The notes below the pieces were generated by a model. The model was given only the letters and a program-made list of their open reading frames with translations. It was not told the origin of the DNA and did no database searches. Both the position numbers and the translations under genes were made by a program. 20,970 bases of DNA from a virus: positions 1-20,970 of the IMG/VR virus record IMGVR_UViG_3300047550_000690, one strand, 5' to 3'. Positions 8,888 through 14,173 of this stretch are shown one piece after another. The stretch's first letter is position 1. Each line of letters begins with the position of its first letter.

Positions 8888-9214
8888 ATGGCACAAAATT
8901 TTAGAAGATACATAGCAAGAAACGTAACAACTTCTGCTAGCACATTATTAACTGCAAATAGTTACGACACAATCATAGGAATATCTATAGCTAACACAAC
9001 TGCTTCAGCTGTTAATGCTTCAGTATATATTACATCAAGTGCTGCAGATTATTACATAGTAAAAAATGCACCGATTCCAGCAGGATCATCATTACAAGTT
9101 TTAGATGGTGGTGCTAAATTCGTTCTTGAATCTGGTGATGCACTAAAAGTAATTTCTGACACAGCTACATCTTTAGATGTAATTGTTAGTGCAGTTGACG
9201 ATATTTCAACATAG
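8888..9214 (+). CDS. Small beta-rich virion/tail-associated protein
   Basis: This 108-residue protein starts MAQNFRRYIARNVT after a clear ribosome site (ATATAGGAAATTAAAT). It is predicted beta-rich from alternating hydrophobic residues: IIGISIANTT, NASVYITSSAADYYIV, IPAGSSLQVLDG, FVLESGDALKVIS and LDVIVSAVDD. The pattern of a strand, a 'PAGSSL' turn, then 'LESGDALKV' is typical of small single-domain phage structural proteins that cap or decorate tails. I do not recognise a named family. It lies between two fibre genes with short gaps and has no signal peptide or membrane segment, so a virion role is the best inference. Confidence 0.6.
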   Translation: MAQNFRRYIARNVTTSASTLLTANSYDTIIGISIANTTASAVNASVYITSSAADYYIVKNAPIPAGSSLQVLDGGAKFVLESGDALKVISDTATSLDVIVSAVDDIST

Positions 9215-9225
9215 GAAATAATTAA

Positions 9226-9960
9226 ATGCCTTTTATAGGAAATAAACCAGCACAAGTTCCTTTAACTTCTGCGGATATAGCTGATGGTATTATAACATCT
9301 GCAAAGATTGTAGATGGTACTATTGTTAATGCTGACATTAACGCAAGTGCAGCTATTGTTGGAACTAAGTTATCTAATACAGGTGGCTTAAAATCTATGC
9401 AAGTATTTTCAACAGCAGGAAGTTTTACTTATACAAAACCATCAGGAATTAATCTTATTAAAGTTTATGTAACTGGAGGTGGTGGCGGAGGTGGAAAAGG
9501 TGGTTCTTCTGAAACTTCTGGAGGAGGTGGAGGAGCAGGAGGAACTGCAATAAAAGTTATTAATGCAACATCTATTACAACTGAAACTGTAACTATTGGT
9601 GCAGGAGGTGCTTCTGAAACTGCAGGTTCTACATCTTCATTTGGTTCTCATTGTTCTGCAACAGGTGGAGAACAAGGTTTAAATGCTGGTGCTTTAGCTG
9701 GAGATACACAAGGTGGAGTTGGTTCAAGTGGAGATATAAATTTATATGGACAAGCTGGTGGTGGCGGAGCAGATGATGCTTCTGCAAAAACTGGTGGATT
9801 AGGTGGTTCTAGTTTTTGGGGAGGTGGTGGATATGGTATATATAACACAACTGGTTTAGTAGGTTATCATGGCGGCGGAGGCGGTGGTGGTCAAAGATCA
9901 ACTGCAAACTTAGGTGGAGCTGGTGGTGCAGGAATTTGTGTAGTGGAGGAATATAGTTAA
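9226..9960 (+). CDS. Glycine-rich tail fibre / adhesin
   Basis: This 244-residue protein follows TAGGAAATAATTAA. Residues 1-55 are a shaft-type N-terminus (MPFIGNKPAQVPLTSADIAD, then DGTIVNADINASAAI at 30-44), shared with the fibre gene at 10371. Residues 58-80 (STAGSFTYTKPSGINLIKVY) lead into a glycine-rich domain with many GGGGG runs up to the C-terminus, of the type annotated as phage 'glycine-rich domain'. In T-even-like adhesins, such glycine-rich motifs form a polyglycine-II sandwich with loops that bind the receptor, and a similar tip role is inferred here. GC is raised locally by the Gly codons. The last base of its stop is the first base of the next ATG, so the small partner is co-translated. 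Confidence 0.75.
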   Translation: MPFIGNKPAQVPLTSADIADGIITSAKIVDGTIVNADINASAAIVGTKLSNTGGLKSMQVFSTAGSFTYTKPSGINLIKVYVTGGGGGGGKGGSSETSGGGGGAGGTAIKVINATSITTETVTIGAGGASETAGSTSSFGSHCSATGGEQGLNAGALAGDTQGGVGSSGDINLYGQAGGGGADDASAKTGGLGGSSFWGGGGYGIYNTTGLVGYHGGGGGGGQRSTANLGGAGGAGICVVEEYS

Positions 9961-10238
9961 TGAAAGCATTAATATTAAATAATAAAGTTGTAGATGTTAA
10001 AGAAGTGGAATTTGAAGTACCTAATACTATGGTTTGGGTAAATTGTTCTAATGATATTAAAATAGGTTATCGTTATGATGGTACAAATTTTATATCTAAT
10101 TTACCAACTGCTGAACAAATTGCAGAATATGAACAAGAAAAATTATTAAAAGAACAAAACAAACAATCAGCACTAAACAAACTTAAAGCATTAGGTTTGA
10201 ATGATGCTGAGATTAAAGCTATTCTTGGTATTAACTAA
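9960..10238 (+). CDS. Small fibre-partner protein (possible fibre chaperone), type A/X
   Basis: This 92-residue protein has a beta-rich N-terminal half (MKALILNNKVVDVKEVEFEV, then MVWVNCSNDIKIGYRYDGTN). A helical linker follows (AEQIAEYEQEKLLKEQ), ending in the module KQSALNKLKALGLNDAEIKA at 68-87. The same C-terminal module ends the protein at 10913. Its start overlaps the fibre stop (TAATG), and each of the three fibre genes in this region is followed by such a protein. By analogy with the tail-fibre assembly chaperones that sit directly after fibre genes in other phages, it may assist folding or cap the fibre. This is inference. Confidence 0.6.
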   Translation: MKALILNNKVVDVKEVEFEVPNTMVWVNCSNDIKIGYRYDGTNFISNLPTAEQIAEYEQEKLLKEQNKQSALNKLKALGLNDAEIKAILGIN

Positions 10239-10239
10239 T

Positions 10240-10368
10240 ATGATTATACAATCTTACATACCAAGAACAGAAACTAACGTAGCAATAATAGGAAATAACA
10301 TGCTGTCGCTAGACTTCATTATTAAATTACTTGTAAAGACTAACAATAAAATTATAAAAGGAATTTAA
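10240..10368 (+). CDS. Hypothetical 42-aa protein
   Basis: A short frame fills the gap between two genes: it starts one base after the previous stop and ends two bases before the next ATG. It begins MIIQSYIPRTETNVAIIGNN and ends in a basic tail with KIIKGI. It is moderately hydrophobic, without a clear membrane helix. Its ribosome site is weak, so translation would depend on coupling. The exact fit between neighbours favours a gene or a gene remnant. I do not recognise it. Confidence 0.4.
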   Translation: MIIQSYIPRTETNVAIIGNNMLSLDFIIKLLVKTNNKIIKGI

Positions 10369-10370
10369 TA

Positions 10371-10910
10371 ATGCCACTAACAAGAATAAAATCACTAGGA
10401 ATAACTGATGGTACAATCGTCAATGCTGATATTAATGCTAGTGCTGCTATAGATTCTACTAAATTATCTGGTGTTGCTAATACTCCAGCTTTCTTTGCAT
10501 ATAAAACTTCTGATCAAACAATATCAGACTCAACATTAACAAAAATAACATTAACATCTGAGGTTTATGATACTGATAATGCTTATGATACAACTAATTC
10601 AAAATTTACAGTACCATCTGGTAAAGCTGGTAAATATTTATTTACCTATGGTGGATTAACAGGTAACTTTGTAAGTGGAAACTGGTGTGAAGTATCTATT
10701 TCTGTAAATGGAACAGAAATATCTCCAAGTAGAAATAGACAATTTATTTCAACATCACAAAGTGCTGTTATACAAGGAATTGTTATATATGATTTAGCAG
10801 TTGGAGATTATGTTGAAATGAATACATTACAATCTTCTGGTGGTTCTAAAACTTTTTATGGTACTGTTGGTACATATTTTACACACTTTCAAGGATTTAA
10901 ATTAATATAA
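10371..10910 (+). CDS. Short tail fibre with C1q-like head
   Basis: This 179-residue protein follows a good ribosome site (AAAAGGAATTTAATA). Residues 1-34 are a shaft segment (MPLTRIKSLGITDGTIVNAD) whose DGTIVNADINASAAI (13-27) is identical to residues 30-44 of the glycine-rich fibre. From ANTPAFFAYKTSDQTIS (35-51) onward the pattern resembles the C1q/TNF-like trimeric beta-jelly-roll: a first strand, a central FTVPSGKAGKYLFTYGG, and a terminal GDYVEMN and FQGFKLI. The head is paralogous to that of the fibre at 12033. It probably forms trimeric receptor-binding knobs. The distance to its partner gene is two bases. Confidence 0.7.
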   Translation: MPLTRIKSLGITDGTIVNADINASAAIDSTKLSGVANTPAFFAYKTSDQTISDSTLTKITLTSEVYDTDNAYDTTNSKFTVPSGKAGKYLFTYGGLTGNFVSGNWCEVSISVNGTEISPSRNRQFISTSQSAVIQGIVIYDLAVGDYVEMNTLQSSGGSKTFYGTVGTYFTHFQGFKLI

Positions 10911-10912
10911 TT

Positions 10913-11179
10913 ATGGCACAACTTACAACTAAAATAAAACTATACACAAACAAAGAAATAGATTTCTTAAATGAAGTTAAACTTAAAGATGATGGTAATG
11001 GTGCTTACATCAAAGAATGGAATTTAAATATTCCACAGCCTACTCAATCTCAATTAGATGCTTTAGAAAATGAAGCTAATATTTATGAACAAAATTTAAT
11101 TAATAACAAACAATCTGCTTTAAATAAATTATCTGCTTTAGGTTTAACTGCAGATGAGATAAAAGCTATTATAGGATAA
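10913..11179 (+). CDS. Small fibre-partner protein, type B/X
   Basis: This 88-residue protein is a chimera of modules seen next door. Its N-terminal half (MAQLTTKIKLYTNKEIDFLN, then EWNLNIPQPTQSQLDALE) is paralogous to the protein at 12923. Its C-terminal tail (NKQSALNKLSALGLTADEIK) is paralogous to the protein at 9960. It follows the C1q-type fibre with a two-base gap. As for the other two partners, a fibre chaperone or cap role is inferred from the fixed gene order. No catalytic motif or membrane segment is visible. The stop lies one base before the start of the HNH gene. Confidence 0.6.
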   Translation: MAQLTTKIKLYTNKEIDFLNEVKLKDDGNGAYIKEWNLNIPQPTQSQLDALENEANIYEQNLINNKQSALNKLSALGLTADEIKAIIG

Positions 11180-11180
11180 T

Positions 11181-12032
11181 ATGGCATATATCGGCAAACA
11201 AAAAATATTTATAAATAACAAATATAAAGTTTGGCATGATAATATAATTGCCAGAGCTAAGAACAGAACATTAGAAGGATATAAAGAAGTACACCATATC
11301 ATTCCTAAAAGCTGTGGTGGTTCAAATGATAAAGATAATATTGTTAATCTTACTGCAAGAGAACATTATATAGTTCATTTATTATTACCTTATTTTACTA
11401 CAGGTGTTGCTAAGCATAAGATGCTAAATGCTTTCATATTTATGACATCTAAATCTAAGTTCTGTAAAAGAGATTATAAGATCCATTCAAGAGTATATGA
11501 AAAATTAAAAAGTGAATTTGCTGCATCATTAAAAGGTAGAAGATTAACACCTGAGTGGAAAGCAAAAATATCTAAAACATTAACAGGAACTAAATTACCA
11601 GAATCAACTAGAAGAAAAATTAGCTTAGCAAATATGGGTAAAAAAGTTAGCGAAAAATCTAAATTAGCTTTATCTATTCGTAATAAAGGTAATAAATATA
11701 ATCTTGGTAAAAAAGCATCATTAGAAACTAAAAGAAAACAATCTATTGCACATACTGGTAAAAAACATACAGAAGAATCTAAAGCAAAAATTAAATATGC
11801 TAGACAGTTTCAGGTTTGCTCAGACGAACAAAGAAAAAGATATAGCGAAATATATTCTAATTTGATTTGGGTTAATAAAGATAATAAATCTAAAAGAATT
11901 AAACCAGAATTAAAACAAGAGTATTTGAATAATGGATATAAACTTGGTAGAGATATGTCTTATATGACAAAAGAATTAAGAAATATATTTGCACAAAAAA
12001 CAAAAGCATATTTTGAAAGGAGAGTTGCATAG
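11181..12032 (+). CDS. HNH homing endonuclease with NUMOD3-type repeats
   Basis: This is a 283-residue free-standing homing endonuclease. The HNH core is at 33-70: EVHHIIPKSCGGSNDKDNIV, then NLTAREHYIVHLLLP, with H38/H39, N53, H62 and H66 as likely catalytic or metal residues. Residues about 115-210 carry several NUMOD3-like DNA-binding motifs (KGRRLTPEWKAKISKTLTG, NMGKKVSEKSKLALS, HTGKKHTEESKAKIK). It lies between a fibre-partner gene and a fibre gene, as expected for an intron-less homing gene that targets a conserved phage sequence. Its first residues, MAYIGKQ, imitate the MAYLGRQ of the following fibre. It sits one base after the preceding stop and ends directly at the TTG start of the next gene, so it is embedded in the late operon. 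Confidence 0.9.
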   Translation: MAYIGKQKIFINNKYKVWHDNIIARAKNRTLEGYKEVHHIIPKSCGGSNDKDNIVNLTAREHYIVHLLLPYFTTGVAKHKMLNAFIFMTSKSKFCKRDYKIHSRVYEKLKSEFAASLKGRRLTPEWKAKISKTLTGTKLPESTRRKISLANMGKKVSEKSKLALSIRNKGNKYNLGKKASLETKRKQSIAHTGKKHTEESKAKIKYARQFQVCSDEQRKRYSEIYSNLIWVNKDNKSKRIKPELKQEYLNNGYKLGRDMSYMTKELRNIFAQKTKAYFERRVA

Positions 12033-12923
12033 TTGGCTTATCTCGGCAGGCAACCTATCAGCGGGAACTTTGTAAAGCTAGATGCAATCACAACATCTGC
12101 TACAGCTACATATAATTTATTAAATGGTGGAGTTGCGTACTACCCACAATCAGCTAACAACTGCATCGTATCTTTAAATGGAGTTATTCAATCGCCAACT
12201 TCAGCTTATACAATATCAGGTTCAACAATCGTATTCTCAGATGCTTTAACTTCATCTGATACAATAGATTTTATTTTAGTATTAGGAGATGTTCTTTCAA
12301 TAGGTACACCAAGTGATGCTACAGTAGGTTTTTCAAAAGTAACTTCTAATTTAATTACTGGTGCTACAGCAGAAACTTCTATTGCTGATGCTGATACATT
12401 ATTAATTTATGATGATAGTGCTACAGCTTTAAGGAAGATGACAAAAAGTAATTTGTTTTCTGGTATTGCTAATACTCCAGCTTTTCATGCAAGAATGAGT
12501 GCAGATCAAACAATTAGTAATAATACTTTAACAAAAGTTAATTTTAATACAGAAGAATTTGATACTAATTCAGCTTATGATTCAACTACTAATTATAGAT
12601 TTACAGTACCTTCTGGACAAGGTGGAAAATATTTTATTTATACAAGCATTCAAGGTAAAATGGTGGATGCTGCAAGTGCATTACAAGCTGTAAAAGTAGC
12701 AATATACAAAAATGGTTCTCAAATATCTATAAATGGAACTGACCCAAGAAATAACAATGGTTATTTTTTTACAGCATATTCACATATAACATTATCTTTG
12801 GTTGCTACTGATTATATAGAAATATTTGGTTATATTATTGGAACTTCTGGAACTAACACAATATTAAATGACAGTCAAAATTACACAAATAGTTTTGGTG
12901 CATTTAAATTAATAGGAGCATAA
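12033..12923 (+). CDS. Tail fibre with conserved MAYxG N-terminus and C1q-like head (TTG start)
   Basis: This 296-residue protein starts with TTG, directly after the endonuclease stop and 8-9 bases after AAAGGAGAG. The start is supported because MAYLGRQPISGNFVKLDAIT is a very common N-terminus of marine phage fibres. Residues 10-90 form an attachment domain with CIVSLNGVIQSPTSAYTISG. Residues 108-142 (TAETSIADADTLLIYDDSA, then LRKMTKSNLF) are a shaft cassette. Residues 145-296 are a C1q-like head, paralogous to the head at 10371 (ANTPAFHARMSADQTIS; FTVPSGQGGKYFIY; SFGAFKLIG). The rare TTG start and the abutting homing gene suggest its original 5' end was disturbed. Its stop overlaps the partner ATG (TAATG). 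Confidence 0.75.
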   Translation: MAYLGRQPISGNFVKLDAITTSATATYNLLNGGVAYYPQSANNCIVSLNGVIQSPTSAYTISGSTIVFSDALTSSDTIDFILVLGDVLSIGTPSDATVGFSKVTSNLITGATAETSIADADTLLIYDDSATALRKMTKSNLFSGIANTPAFHARMSADQTISNNTLTKVNFNTEEFDTNSAYDSTTNYRFTVPSGQGGKYFIYTSIQGKMVDAASALQAVKVAIYKNGSQISINGTDPRNNNGYFFTAYSHITLSLVATDYIEIFGYIIGTSGTNTILNDSQNYTNSFGAFKLIGA

Positions 12924-13252
12924 TGACACAACTTACAACTAAAATAAAAATATACGCAAATAAAGAAATAGATTTTCTTAAAGATGTAAGATTACAAGAC
13001 AACTCAGATGGTAAAGGAGTATTCATAGCTGAATGGAATTTAGATATTCCTAAACCTACAATGGCACAGTTAGATGCTTTTGAAGCACAAGCTAATGAAG
13101 TTGAAAGAATTAATGAAATTAAAGCTAAAAGAGCAAACGAATATCCTGACTTTAGAGAATACCTAGATGGTATTGTTAAAGGTGATAACGCACAAATACA
13201 AAAGTACATTAACGATTGTCTAGCAGTTAAAGCTAAATACCCAAAAGAATAA
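12923..13252 (+). CDS. Small fibre-partner protein, type B/Y
   Basis: This 109-residue protein starts within the fibre stop (TAATG). The N-terminal half (MTQLTTKIKIYANKEIDFLK, then EWNLDIPKPTMAQLDAFEAQ) matches the protein at 10913. The C-terminal half differs and has the pattern EYPDFREYLDGIVKGDNAQI followed by YINDCLAVKAKYPK, a helical tail often seen in small phage proteins next to fibres. It is the third fibre-plus-partner pair and the last gene before a 47-bp gap. A role in fibre folding, capping or attachment is inferred from context only. Confidence 0.6.
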   Translation: MTQLTTKIKIYANKEIDFLKDVRLQDNSDGKGVFIAEWNLDIPKPTMAQLDAFEAQANEVERINEIKAKRANEYPDFREYLDGIVKGDNAQIQKYINDCLAVKAKYPKE

Positions 13253-13282
13253 ACTTAACAATCACATATAATAATATATAAA

Positions 13283-13301
13283 ATAACCATTAAAGGGTTA
13301 T
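13283..13301 (+). promoter_or_regulatory. Hairpin over the start of the glycosyltransferase gene
   Basis: ATAACC (13283-13288) and GGTTAT (13296-13301) form a 6-bp inverted repeat with a 7-base loop. The right arm covers part of the AAAGGG ribosome site and the first two bases of the ATG at 13300, so folding could limit initiation. Upstream 13262-13283 is almost pure A/T and could hold a -10 element. Weak evidence. Confidence 0.25.
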
Positions 13302-14055
13302 GAATATTTTAATTGCAATACCATGTTTCGGAGGTAACGTAAGTAACCTTACATTCCATTCTATATTAAACACATTACGTTGGTTAAACGATCAGGGACA
13401 TAATATCAGAGTTGAAACCTTGCCAACTGAATCCTTAATCAATCGTGCTAGAAATAAGTTTGTAACTAAGTTCTTAGATAATAAAGAATTTAATGGTACG
13501 CATTTATTATTCATTGATGCTGATATAGGTTTCACAATAGAGAACTTAAAAAGAATAATAGACTTTAATAAAGATGTTGTAACATGCACCTATCCTGTCA
13601 AAGGTTTCTATTGGCAGCAATTACTAGATCGTATCAAGAAGAATACAGATATAGATGAGAAGCTAATGCGTGATTATCTATTACAGTTTAATGTTAATCT
13701 ATATCCTAATACAGAATTTAAAGATGGATTTGCAAGGGTAAAGGAAAGTGCCACAGGTTTTATGATGATTAAACGTGAAGTATTTACTGCAATCATGGAT
13801 AAGAATCCTCAGCTTAAATATAAACCAGATTTAAGAACAGGTATAGAAGGATCAGATAATGCTTATGATTTCTTTCCTGTTGGCATCTATAAAGAAAAAG
13901 ATGGTGTTAATAGATTCTTATCTGAAGATTATTACTTCTGTAGATTAGCTGAAGAGTGTGGCTTTGAGATCTGGACAGATCTATCTACTCCTATAAATCA
14001 TTTGGGTAGCACAGAATATTATGGTAAGTTTATAGATCAAATAAACAGGAAATAA
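13300..14055 (+). CDS. GT-A-fold glycosyltransferase-like protein
   Basis: This 251-residue protein has the layout of a compact GT-A glycosyltransferase. It has an N-terminal Rossmann-like strand (MNILIAIPCFGG), a DxD-type motif FIDADIGF with D73 and D75 for metal and sugar-nucleotide binding, an acceptor-side segment ESATGFMMIKREVF (149-162), and SEDYYFCRLAEECGFEIWTD (208-227) followed by INHLG with H234. The family is widespread in phages, where members can modify phage DNA bases, virion proteins or host surface sugars; the substrate cannot be read from the sequence. The location directly after the fibre block suggests virion or fibre glycosylation or receptor modification (inference). It is preceded by the only sizeable gap in the late region before 14335. 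Confidence 0.75.
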   Translation: MNILIAIPCFGGNVSNLTFHSILNTLRWLNDQGHNIRVETLPTESLINRARNKFVTKFLDNKEFNGTHLLFIDADIGFTIENLKRIIDFNKDVVTCTYPVKGFYWQQLLDRIKKNTDIDEKLMRDYLLQFNVNLYPNTEFKDGFARVKESATGFMMIKREVFTAIMDKNPQLKYKPDLRTGIEGSDNAYDFFPVGIYKEKDGVNRFLSEDYYFCRLAEECGFEIWTDLSTPINHLGSTEYYGKFIDQINRK

Positions 14056-14056
14056 T

Positions 14057-14173
14057 ATGACAACAATATTAATACTTATATCTTTAATCATTGGTATCTA
14101 CATTGGCTGGAAGTATGAGCATGTAGTTAATGATATAATAGAATCTATTAAATCGCACTTGAATATAAAATAG
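14057..14173 (+). CDS. 38-aa single-pass membrane microprotein
   Basis: It begins one base after the glycosyltransferase stop, behind AGGAAATAAT. The sequence starts MTTILILISLIIGIYIGWKY, one transmembrane helix, followed by a short charged amphipathic tail (EHVVNDIIES). It probably sits in the inner membrane with the C-terminus in the cytoplasm or periplasm. Size and topology would also fit a small lysis or membrane-modifying protein, but the lysis genes lie further on. It is not a family I can name. Confidence 0.55.
   Translation: MTTILILISLIIGIYIGWKYEHVVNDIIESIKSHLNIK

Follow-up and report, generated by a model that had tools for sequence, protein, structure and literature searches.

Two neighbouring genes in the window, as the whole stretch of 20,970 bases analysed here is called, start alike: a homing endonuclease gene and the tail-fibre gene that follows directly at its stop codon. 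This raises the question of how the start of a fibre came to stand at the head of an endonuclease, and what became of the fibre itself. The preliminary description proposed that the homing gene had taken over the fibre 5' end and its start signals. The comparisons below agree with that idea but refine it, since the fibre 5' end seems to be replaced rather than only displaced. The preliminary description had missed the apparent rewriting of the first ~33 fibre bases and the match between the retained half-site and its local upstream context.

The endonuclease gene and its setting

The gene order of the fibre region resembles that of Pelagibacter phage HTVC203P, with a large internal protein, a tail fibre, a small structural gene, a run of fibre-like and small genes, and a peptidase. 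Positions 9226-13252 contain three tandem modules, pairing a fibre-like gene with a small XkdW-like or tail-assembly-like gene. The homing endonuclease gene is located between modules two and three (Table 1), a placement suggesting that such elements may help to build fibre arrays. A distant DNA search of the phages collection with positions 9000-14100 matched 117 phage records, 10 of them Pelagibacter phages; among the 30 of these 117 rows listed, the endonuclease region was matched by T4-like enterobacterial phages, and the rows from Pelagibacter phages carried annotations for other genes.

The endonuclease ORF (11181-12032) encodes 283 aa, starts with MAYIGKQKIFINNKYK and ends with TAG at 12030-12032. 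Pfam matches to NUMOD3 (2e-14, three stretches) and HNH (1.6e-5, above the cut-off), together with PHROG 655, homing endonuclease (2e-42), show both the HNH motif and the NUMOD repeats of HNH/NUMOD3 homing endonucleases, and the product is thus predicted to cleave DNA and to home. Residues H39, N53, and H62, which we take to be the three catalytic residues of the HNH motif, are invariant in an alignment of 11 relatives, and the conserved core begins at about residue 11. The dN/dS values of 0.20-0.48 (28 pairs, the L007 gene being entered without its last codons) point to a gene that is under purifying selection. The AlphaFold model is poor (mean pLDDT 53.8; residues 1-11 below 50), and a PDB profile search yielded only matches of ~30 residues, to a maturase reverse transcriptase and a 5-methylcytosine-specific restriction enzyme. 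Scanning genome contigs with the endonuclease as query gave no relative.

Table 1. Features of the endonuclease and fibre region, in window coordinates
Feature	Position	Strand	Basis
Fibre modules one, two and three	9226-10238, 10371-11179, 12033-13252		
Small XkdW-like gene, left flank of the endonuclease	10913..11179	+	Pfam XkdW 1.6e-11
HNH/NUMOD3 homing endonuclease gene, in-frame fusion to the fibre-start remnant	11181..12032	+	Pfam, PHROG
Retained 21 bases of the former fibre start (MAYIGKQ), reused as endonuclease codons 1-7	11181..11201	+	blastn junction, 20-mer survey
HNH core, residues 38-62	11292..11366	+	Pfam and alignment
Best of three NUMOD3 motifs, residues 153-188, likely DNA binding	11637..11744	+	Pfam
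Shine-Dalgarno-like AAAGGAGAG inside the last endonuclease codons, serving the fibre	12016..12024	+	Read from sequence
Tail fibre gene, beginning with TTG immediately after the endonuclease stop	12033..12923	+	PHROG 18673 tail fiber 5e-34
Rewritten fibre 5' end, 11 codons beginning with TTG, probably a cleavage-resistant replacement	12033..12065	+	Comparison with the nearest endonuclease-free fibre

A fibre-start remnant at the head of the endonuclease

Fibres of this family in other phages usually start with exactly the bases of 11181-11201. Of the 57 IMG/VR contigs that contain the 20-mer ATGGCWTATATCGGCAAACA, 53 read on with ACC and encode an intact fibre from it (MAYIGKQP), and four read on with AAA and encode an endonuclease of the window type. 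The expectation that relatives free of the insert would carry an intact, ATG-started fibre at this sequence is thereby borne out in 53 of 57 contigs, several of them with the same upstream sequence. Within the window, the starts of the endonuclease and of the downstream fibre share 15 of 20 bases, which confirms the reported likeness of MAYIGKQ to the start of the next gene. Neither strand of the window holds another match of 15/20, and 60 simulated Markov-1 windows of equal length gave one 15/20 match in total. This within-window match and the identity to the fibre start in 53 contigs exclude a chance resemblance of the two starts.

Relatives of the endonuclease typically start otherwise. Among 58 distinct distant rows (from 74 loci, which belong to the best 80 of at least 386 confirmed), typical starts are MFIDNKY, MIFIDNKY, and MYLQNKY, and none is MAYIG; four of these rows (L167, L173, L180, and L191) lack a usable start, and their in-frame stretch shows no MAYIG. 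MAYIG-started endonucleases away from fibres, named beforehand as the case that would count against a captured fibre start, were sought and not seen in these 58 rows. An origin of MAYIGKQ within the endonuclease family is excluded, the relatives in this set (best 80 of at least 386) starting with M(I)FIxNKY, MYLxNKY or MNYxxIY.

The left boundary of the element was located by blastn of the left flank plus 60 endonuclease bases against endonuclease-free loci. Identity with the empty alleles ends exactly at ORF base 21 in all four MAYIGKQ-class loci tested (the window, L001, L002, and L010). Empty-site counterparts with both flanks were recovered for seven of eight endonuclease-bearing loci, demonstrating a presence/absence polymorphism at one site; L005 was the only one of the eight for which an empty site was not found. 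Apart from the endonuclease, which separates base 21 from base ~34, the fibre locus is intact. Twelve bases are replaced by 864 in the window, L001, and L002, and by 681 in L010; the replaced segment is 33 bases long in L003 (by 864), L009 (by 681), and L007. With the 21-base remnant, the junction at base 21 and the empty sites in 7/8 loci, the proposed takeover of the fibre 5' end and its start signals is supported.

The remnant appears to belong to the invaded locus. The AGGA-TAA-T at the end of the XkdW-like gene corresponds to the start signals formerly used by the fibre. Similar upstream sequence, ending in AGGATAAT, is common to the window and to contigs with endonuclease-free fibres (L020, L021, L040, L043, L060, L062, and L069). 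The upstream sequence of L002 differs from that of the window and is common to fibre contigs L017, L035, and L054. Codon 2 of the remnant is GCA behind AGGATAAY in the window and both fetched endonuclease loci, as in 10 of 14 endonuclease-free ones, and GCT behind CCACAAATATA in the single endonuclease locus and all three endonuclease-free loci with that context. This tracking of the upstream context by codon 2, though small in numbers, fits a remnant left by the host gene.

Fifteen close viral loci were classified by the endonuclease start as MAYIGKQ (four), MAYIGRD (three), MFIENKYK (five), and METINNKYK type without MAYIG (three). Apparent copies among the printed stretches (L003/L004, L005/L006/L008, L009/L012, and L010/L011) make the independent cases fewer than 15. 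The remnant comprises 21 bases in the window and 4 of the 15 loci, is reduced to a 16-base match in L005-type loci, and is absent in five. In the MFIENKYK class (5/15), the left junction immediately precedes the fibre start and no remnant is left, indicating that the remnant is not essential. Near-identical endonuclease bodies occur with and without it (L009 and L010, 95.7% over 645 bases; L002 and L007, 96.6% identity over 771 bases). The enzyme core is thus independent of the MAYIGKQ peptide, as had been suggested, five close relatives starting with MFIENKYK and three others of the 15 lacking the peptide otherwise. A structural, fibre-like gene is located directly 3' of the endonuclease in all 15 loci, although L014 shows only seven codons of it and the three METINNKYK-type neighbours belong to other families and are putatively fibre-like. 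In the fibre survey described below, the endonuclease-bearing loci carry one endonuclease each within ~1.5 kb.

Compared with the window gene, L009 and L010 encode a shorter endonuclease body missing ~60 middle residues; this form occurs with either start type, and the endonuclease genes therefore look mosaic. One MAYIGRD-type copy (L008:4447-5284) contains a frameshift, representing decay or a sequencing error.

Replacement of the fibre start

The fibre ORF (12033-12923, 296 aa) reads MAYLGRQPISGNF from its start. As first noted, it begins with TTG at 12033, immediately after the endonuclease stop at 12030-12032. The Shine-Dalgarno-like AAAGGAGAG lies 8 bases before this TTG, and relatives have the same stretch or one like it ahead of their fibre start; the old start signals are thus left to the endonuclease, and new ones serve the fibre.

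The extent of change in the fibre was assessed in a survey whose query began at fibre codon 12 and which was consequently blind to the fibre start itself. It yielded 77 usable loci of 80 (three being cut off at a contig edge), giving, with the window, 78 fibres, 65 of them distinct: six with an endonuclease directly upstream and 59 without. The 57-contig 20-mer set, having been selected for the canonical start, was kept out of the divergence statistics. Between the window fibre and its nearest endonuclease-free counterpart, 13 of 33 bases differ at 12033-12065, vs. 11 of 161 at fibre bases 40-200. The same holds for all six endonuclease-bearing fibres, with 11-15 mismatches in bases 1-33 and 0-11 in bases 40-200 relative to the nearest endonuclease-free fibre; these six sequences are related, and the counts are not independent. 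In the extreme case, L007 (counted as L279) differs from L306 at 14 positions of the first 33 and at none of the 161 downstream. Pairs of endonuclease-free fibres with 0-3 downstream mismatches (n = 57 pairs) show a mean of 1.8 and a maximum of 9 mismatches in bases 1-33, and those with 4-8 show a mean of 1.7 and a maximum of 17, the latter being L322.

The rewritten starts are also distinguished by their start codon, TTG being found in 6/6 fibres behind an endonuclease vs. 0/59 endonuclease-free ones, and by the absence of the GGNAARCARCC motif of codons 5-8, found in 0/6 vs. 42/59. Bases 16-21, the most conserved without an endonuclease (consensus match 0.99, n = 41), are the most changed with one (0.19-0.38, n = 7), the count leaving out L134, L008, L146, L093, and L122 as misregistered or set apart. 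The rewritten patches differ among themselves by a mean of 10-12 mismatches. Despite these DNA changes, their peptide remains [AS]Y[ILV]G[KR]xPxxGNF and is probably still selected as protein. Rewriting of the first ~33 fibre bases implies that the element replaces the fibre start and does not merely push it downstream.

The origin of the patch may lie in other fibres. The 17-mer TATATTGGACGTACTCC, present in some of the rewritten starts, is also found at the head of a distant fibre class, reading MAYIGRTPTNAALT or MSYIGRTPTNAALT, in 9 of 47 contigs (L226, L230, L238, L241, L249, L252, L253, L259, and L266), so that recruitment from another fibre is conceivable. This class is a possible donor of the replacement start, and the patch could have arisen by ordinary fibre recombination. 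L322 (the same as L093, and counted as L322 in the fibre survey and divergence statistics) carries a rewritten start, MYIGRQPLIGNF (L093:3646-3690), with 17 mismatches and no endonuclease directly upstream. The patch can therefore occur alone; this locus may be a scar of element loss, a resistant allele, or a sign that the patch is independent of the element.

Proposed mechanism, alternatives, and related elements

The reading that we consider probable is that an intronless homing element enters a phage tail-fibre gene at its 5' end and exchanges that end for a version of its own. The endonuclease would recognize the highly conserved fibre start, approximately bases 1-33 (canonical sequence ATGGCATATATCGGCAAACAACCAGTTGTAGG), and cut endonuclease-free phages during mixed infection. 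Repair templated by the donor would then copy the endonuclease and the rewritten start together. The sequence shows the left 21 fibre bases retained as the start codon and first seven codons of the endonuclease, behind the old start signals of the fibre; the right end of the element supplies rewritten fibre codons 1-11 with a new start codon and a ribosome site, rebuilding a full-length fibre. The rewritten start would not be cuttable by the enzyme, and the 21-base remnant, lacking the right half of the site, would also stay uncut; where upstream genes differ, the remnant may serve as the left homology arm. We infer the fibre start as the cleavage site from sequence comparison, and the closeness of the patch to the insert speaks for a site nearby. 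From the sequence, a short and well-defined candidate target can be paired with its candidate-resistant counterpart.

The best-placed alternative, though an unlikely one, is ordinary T4-style free-standing homing, in which the cut site is distant and the fibre start has diverged or been co-converted. For free-standing enzymes of phages, cut sites hundreds or thousands of bases away from the enzyme gene are described (PMC2988022), but a distant cut leaves unexplained a divergence limited to ~33 bases beside the insert and followed by up to 161/161 identical bases. Clearly less probable is that the rewritten start is an adaptation to its new context, tuning expression rather than conferring resistance to cutting. 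The TTG codon behind an AGGAG-like stretch, or a weaker version of it, in 6/6 fibres would suit this; however, the changes reach codon 11, many of them synonymous or conservative, are heaviest at the best-conserved bases 16-21, and are found also in L006, which retains ATG. Marginally weaker still is fibre-module shuffling, whereby the endonuclease entered another tandem fibre copy, the remainder of which was lost, and now adjoins the next module by chance. The three tandem modules in the window and the sharing of fibre starts by many modules make this conceivable, but it predicts a normal downstream fibre start, seen in 0/6 cases, and empty loci with both flanks exist. The last reading, an endonuclease encoded in an intron or intein, where splicing would join fibre codon 7 to an exon further downstream, would suit the shared reading frame of the ORF and fibre codons 1-7, a feature of some mitochondrial intron ORFs, but it is practically excluded by the absence of any group I or II intron match in Rfam (window 10500-13300), there being moreover no room for a ribozyme, a stop codon at the end of an ORF that fills the insert, and a separate start and ribosome site for the fibre. 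With no intron or intein around it, the gene is best classified, from its sequence, as a free-standing (intronless) homing gene.

By analogy, the closest known system to a replaced gene end is the family of yeast WHO elements at FBA1. These intronless elements replace one end of the host gene at each integration, leave a fragment of the old end on the far side and carry a resistant gene end (PMC7282813). The phage element likewise appears to replace one host-gene end, with bases 1-33 rewritten in 6/6 fibres, but at the 5' rather than the 3' end; it also leaves an old-end fragment on the far side, of only 21 bases and now serving as the start of the enzyme. Resistance of the host gene to its own enzyme is a feature of WHO elements (PMC7282813), which in the phage is suggested by the rewritten start. 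WHO elements are also marked by tandem clusters of old copies; on this point the fibre survey covers ~1.5 kb at each locus, with one endonuclease in each endonuclease-bearing locus. Cleavage has been shown for WHO, which uses an intein-derived zinc-finger endonuclease and replaces the FBA1 3' end (PMC7282813), whereas the phage element encodes an HNH/NUMOD3 enzyme at a fibre gene and is presumed to cleave. It is thus not a WHO element by descent; following the same logic at a 5' end with an unrelated enzyme, it would work like WHO without being one.

Other comparisons are more partial. In fungal mitochondria, mobile ORFs associated with duplicated gene ends, described for atp6, atp9, cox2, and nad3 of Glomus and for Allomyces, are similarly inserted together with a divergent replacement of a gene end; they differ in that the C-terminus is replaced, the native end remains downstream and the atp6 enzyme is of the LAGLIDADG type (PMC3630166). 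The nearest phage relatives in kind, again by analogy, are the T4-type free-standing Seg and Mob enzymes, including Aeh1 mobE inside nrdA (PMC2988022). They share an intronless homing enzyme beside an important gene and co-conversion of flanks, but their cut sites are described as distant, and in the excerpted account the split gene is described without a replacement gene end (PMC2988022). For free-standing HNH genes of Skunavirus, recipients are assumed to become resistant as their cleavage sequence is replaced by that of the donor, but the homing gene itself is described as lying at a position unrelated to its target gene (PMC12724721). Homing genes at phage exchange boundaries have also been studied (PMC10448857). 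An account of the present arrangement in phages was not found in the open-licence literature, which leaves out most subscription papers. The T4 mobA and gene 60 bypass cassette provides a precedent for an endonuclease moving along with a resistance-conferring change, as proposed here, although resistance there is due to the inserted bypass sequence and not to a rewritten gene start.

Whether phages own a class of gene-end-replacing homing elements mirroring WHO, combining an endonuclease with a resistant tail-fibre 5' end and keeping a half-site as both recombination arm and enzyme start codon, appears to us evenly balanced. Such a class would illustrate a route by which selfish genes get into protein-coding genes with neither intron nor intein, by bringing a replacement for the part that they break, and its presence in phages, based on an unrelated enzyme, would make the carrying of replacements a general solution. 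The target fibre start being common to many marine phage contigs, the element may help to move fibre modules between phages; if the proposal is true, moving with fibre starts could drive the exchange of fibre modules, and perhaps of host range, among abundant marine phages.

A scan with the fibre of L013, representing a second fibre family, recovered distant relatives and one identical contig, also endonuclease-bearing. Another HNH gene (L394:785-1321, 49% identity over 176 aa) is located at a locus of a different fibre family, suggesting that the lineage invades several fibre types. In L196, L198, L200, and L218, distant HNH genes lie just 5' of a gene starting (MPR)LS(L/M)(Y/F)(R/K)PEKG, forming a recurrent neighbour pair.
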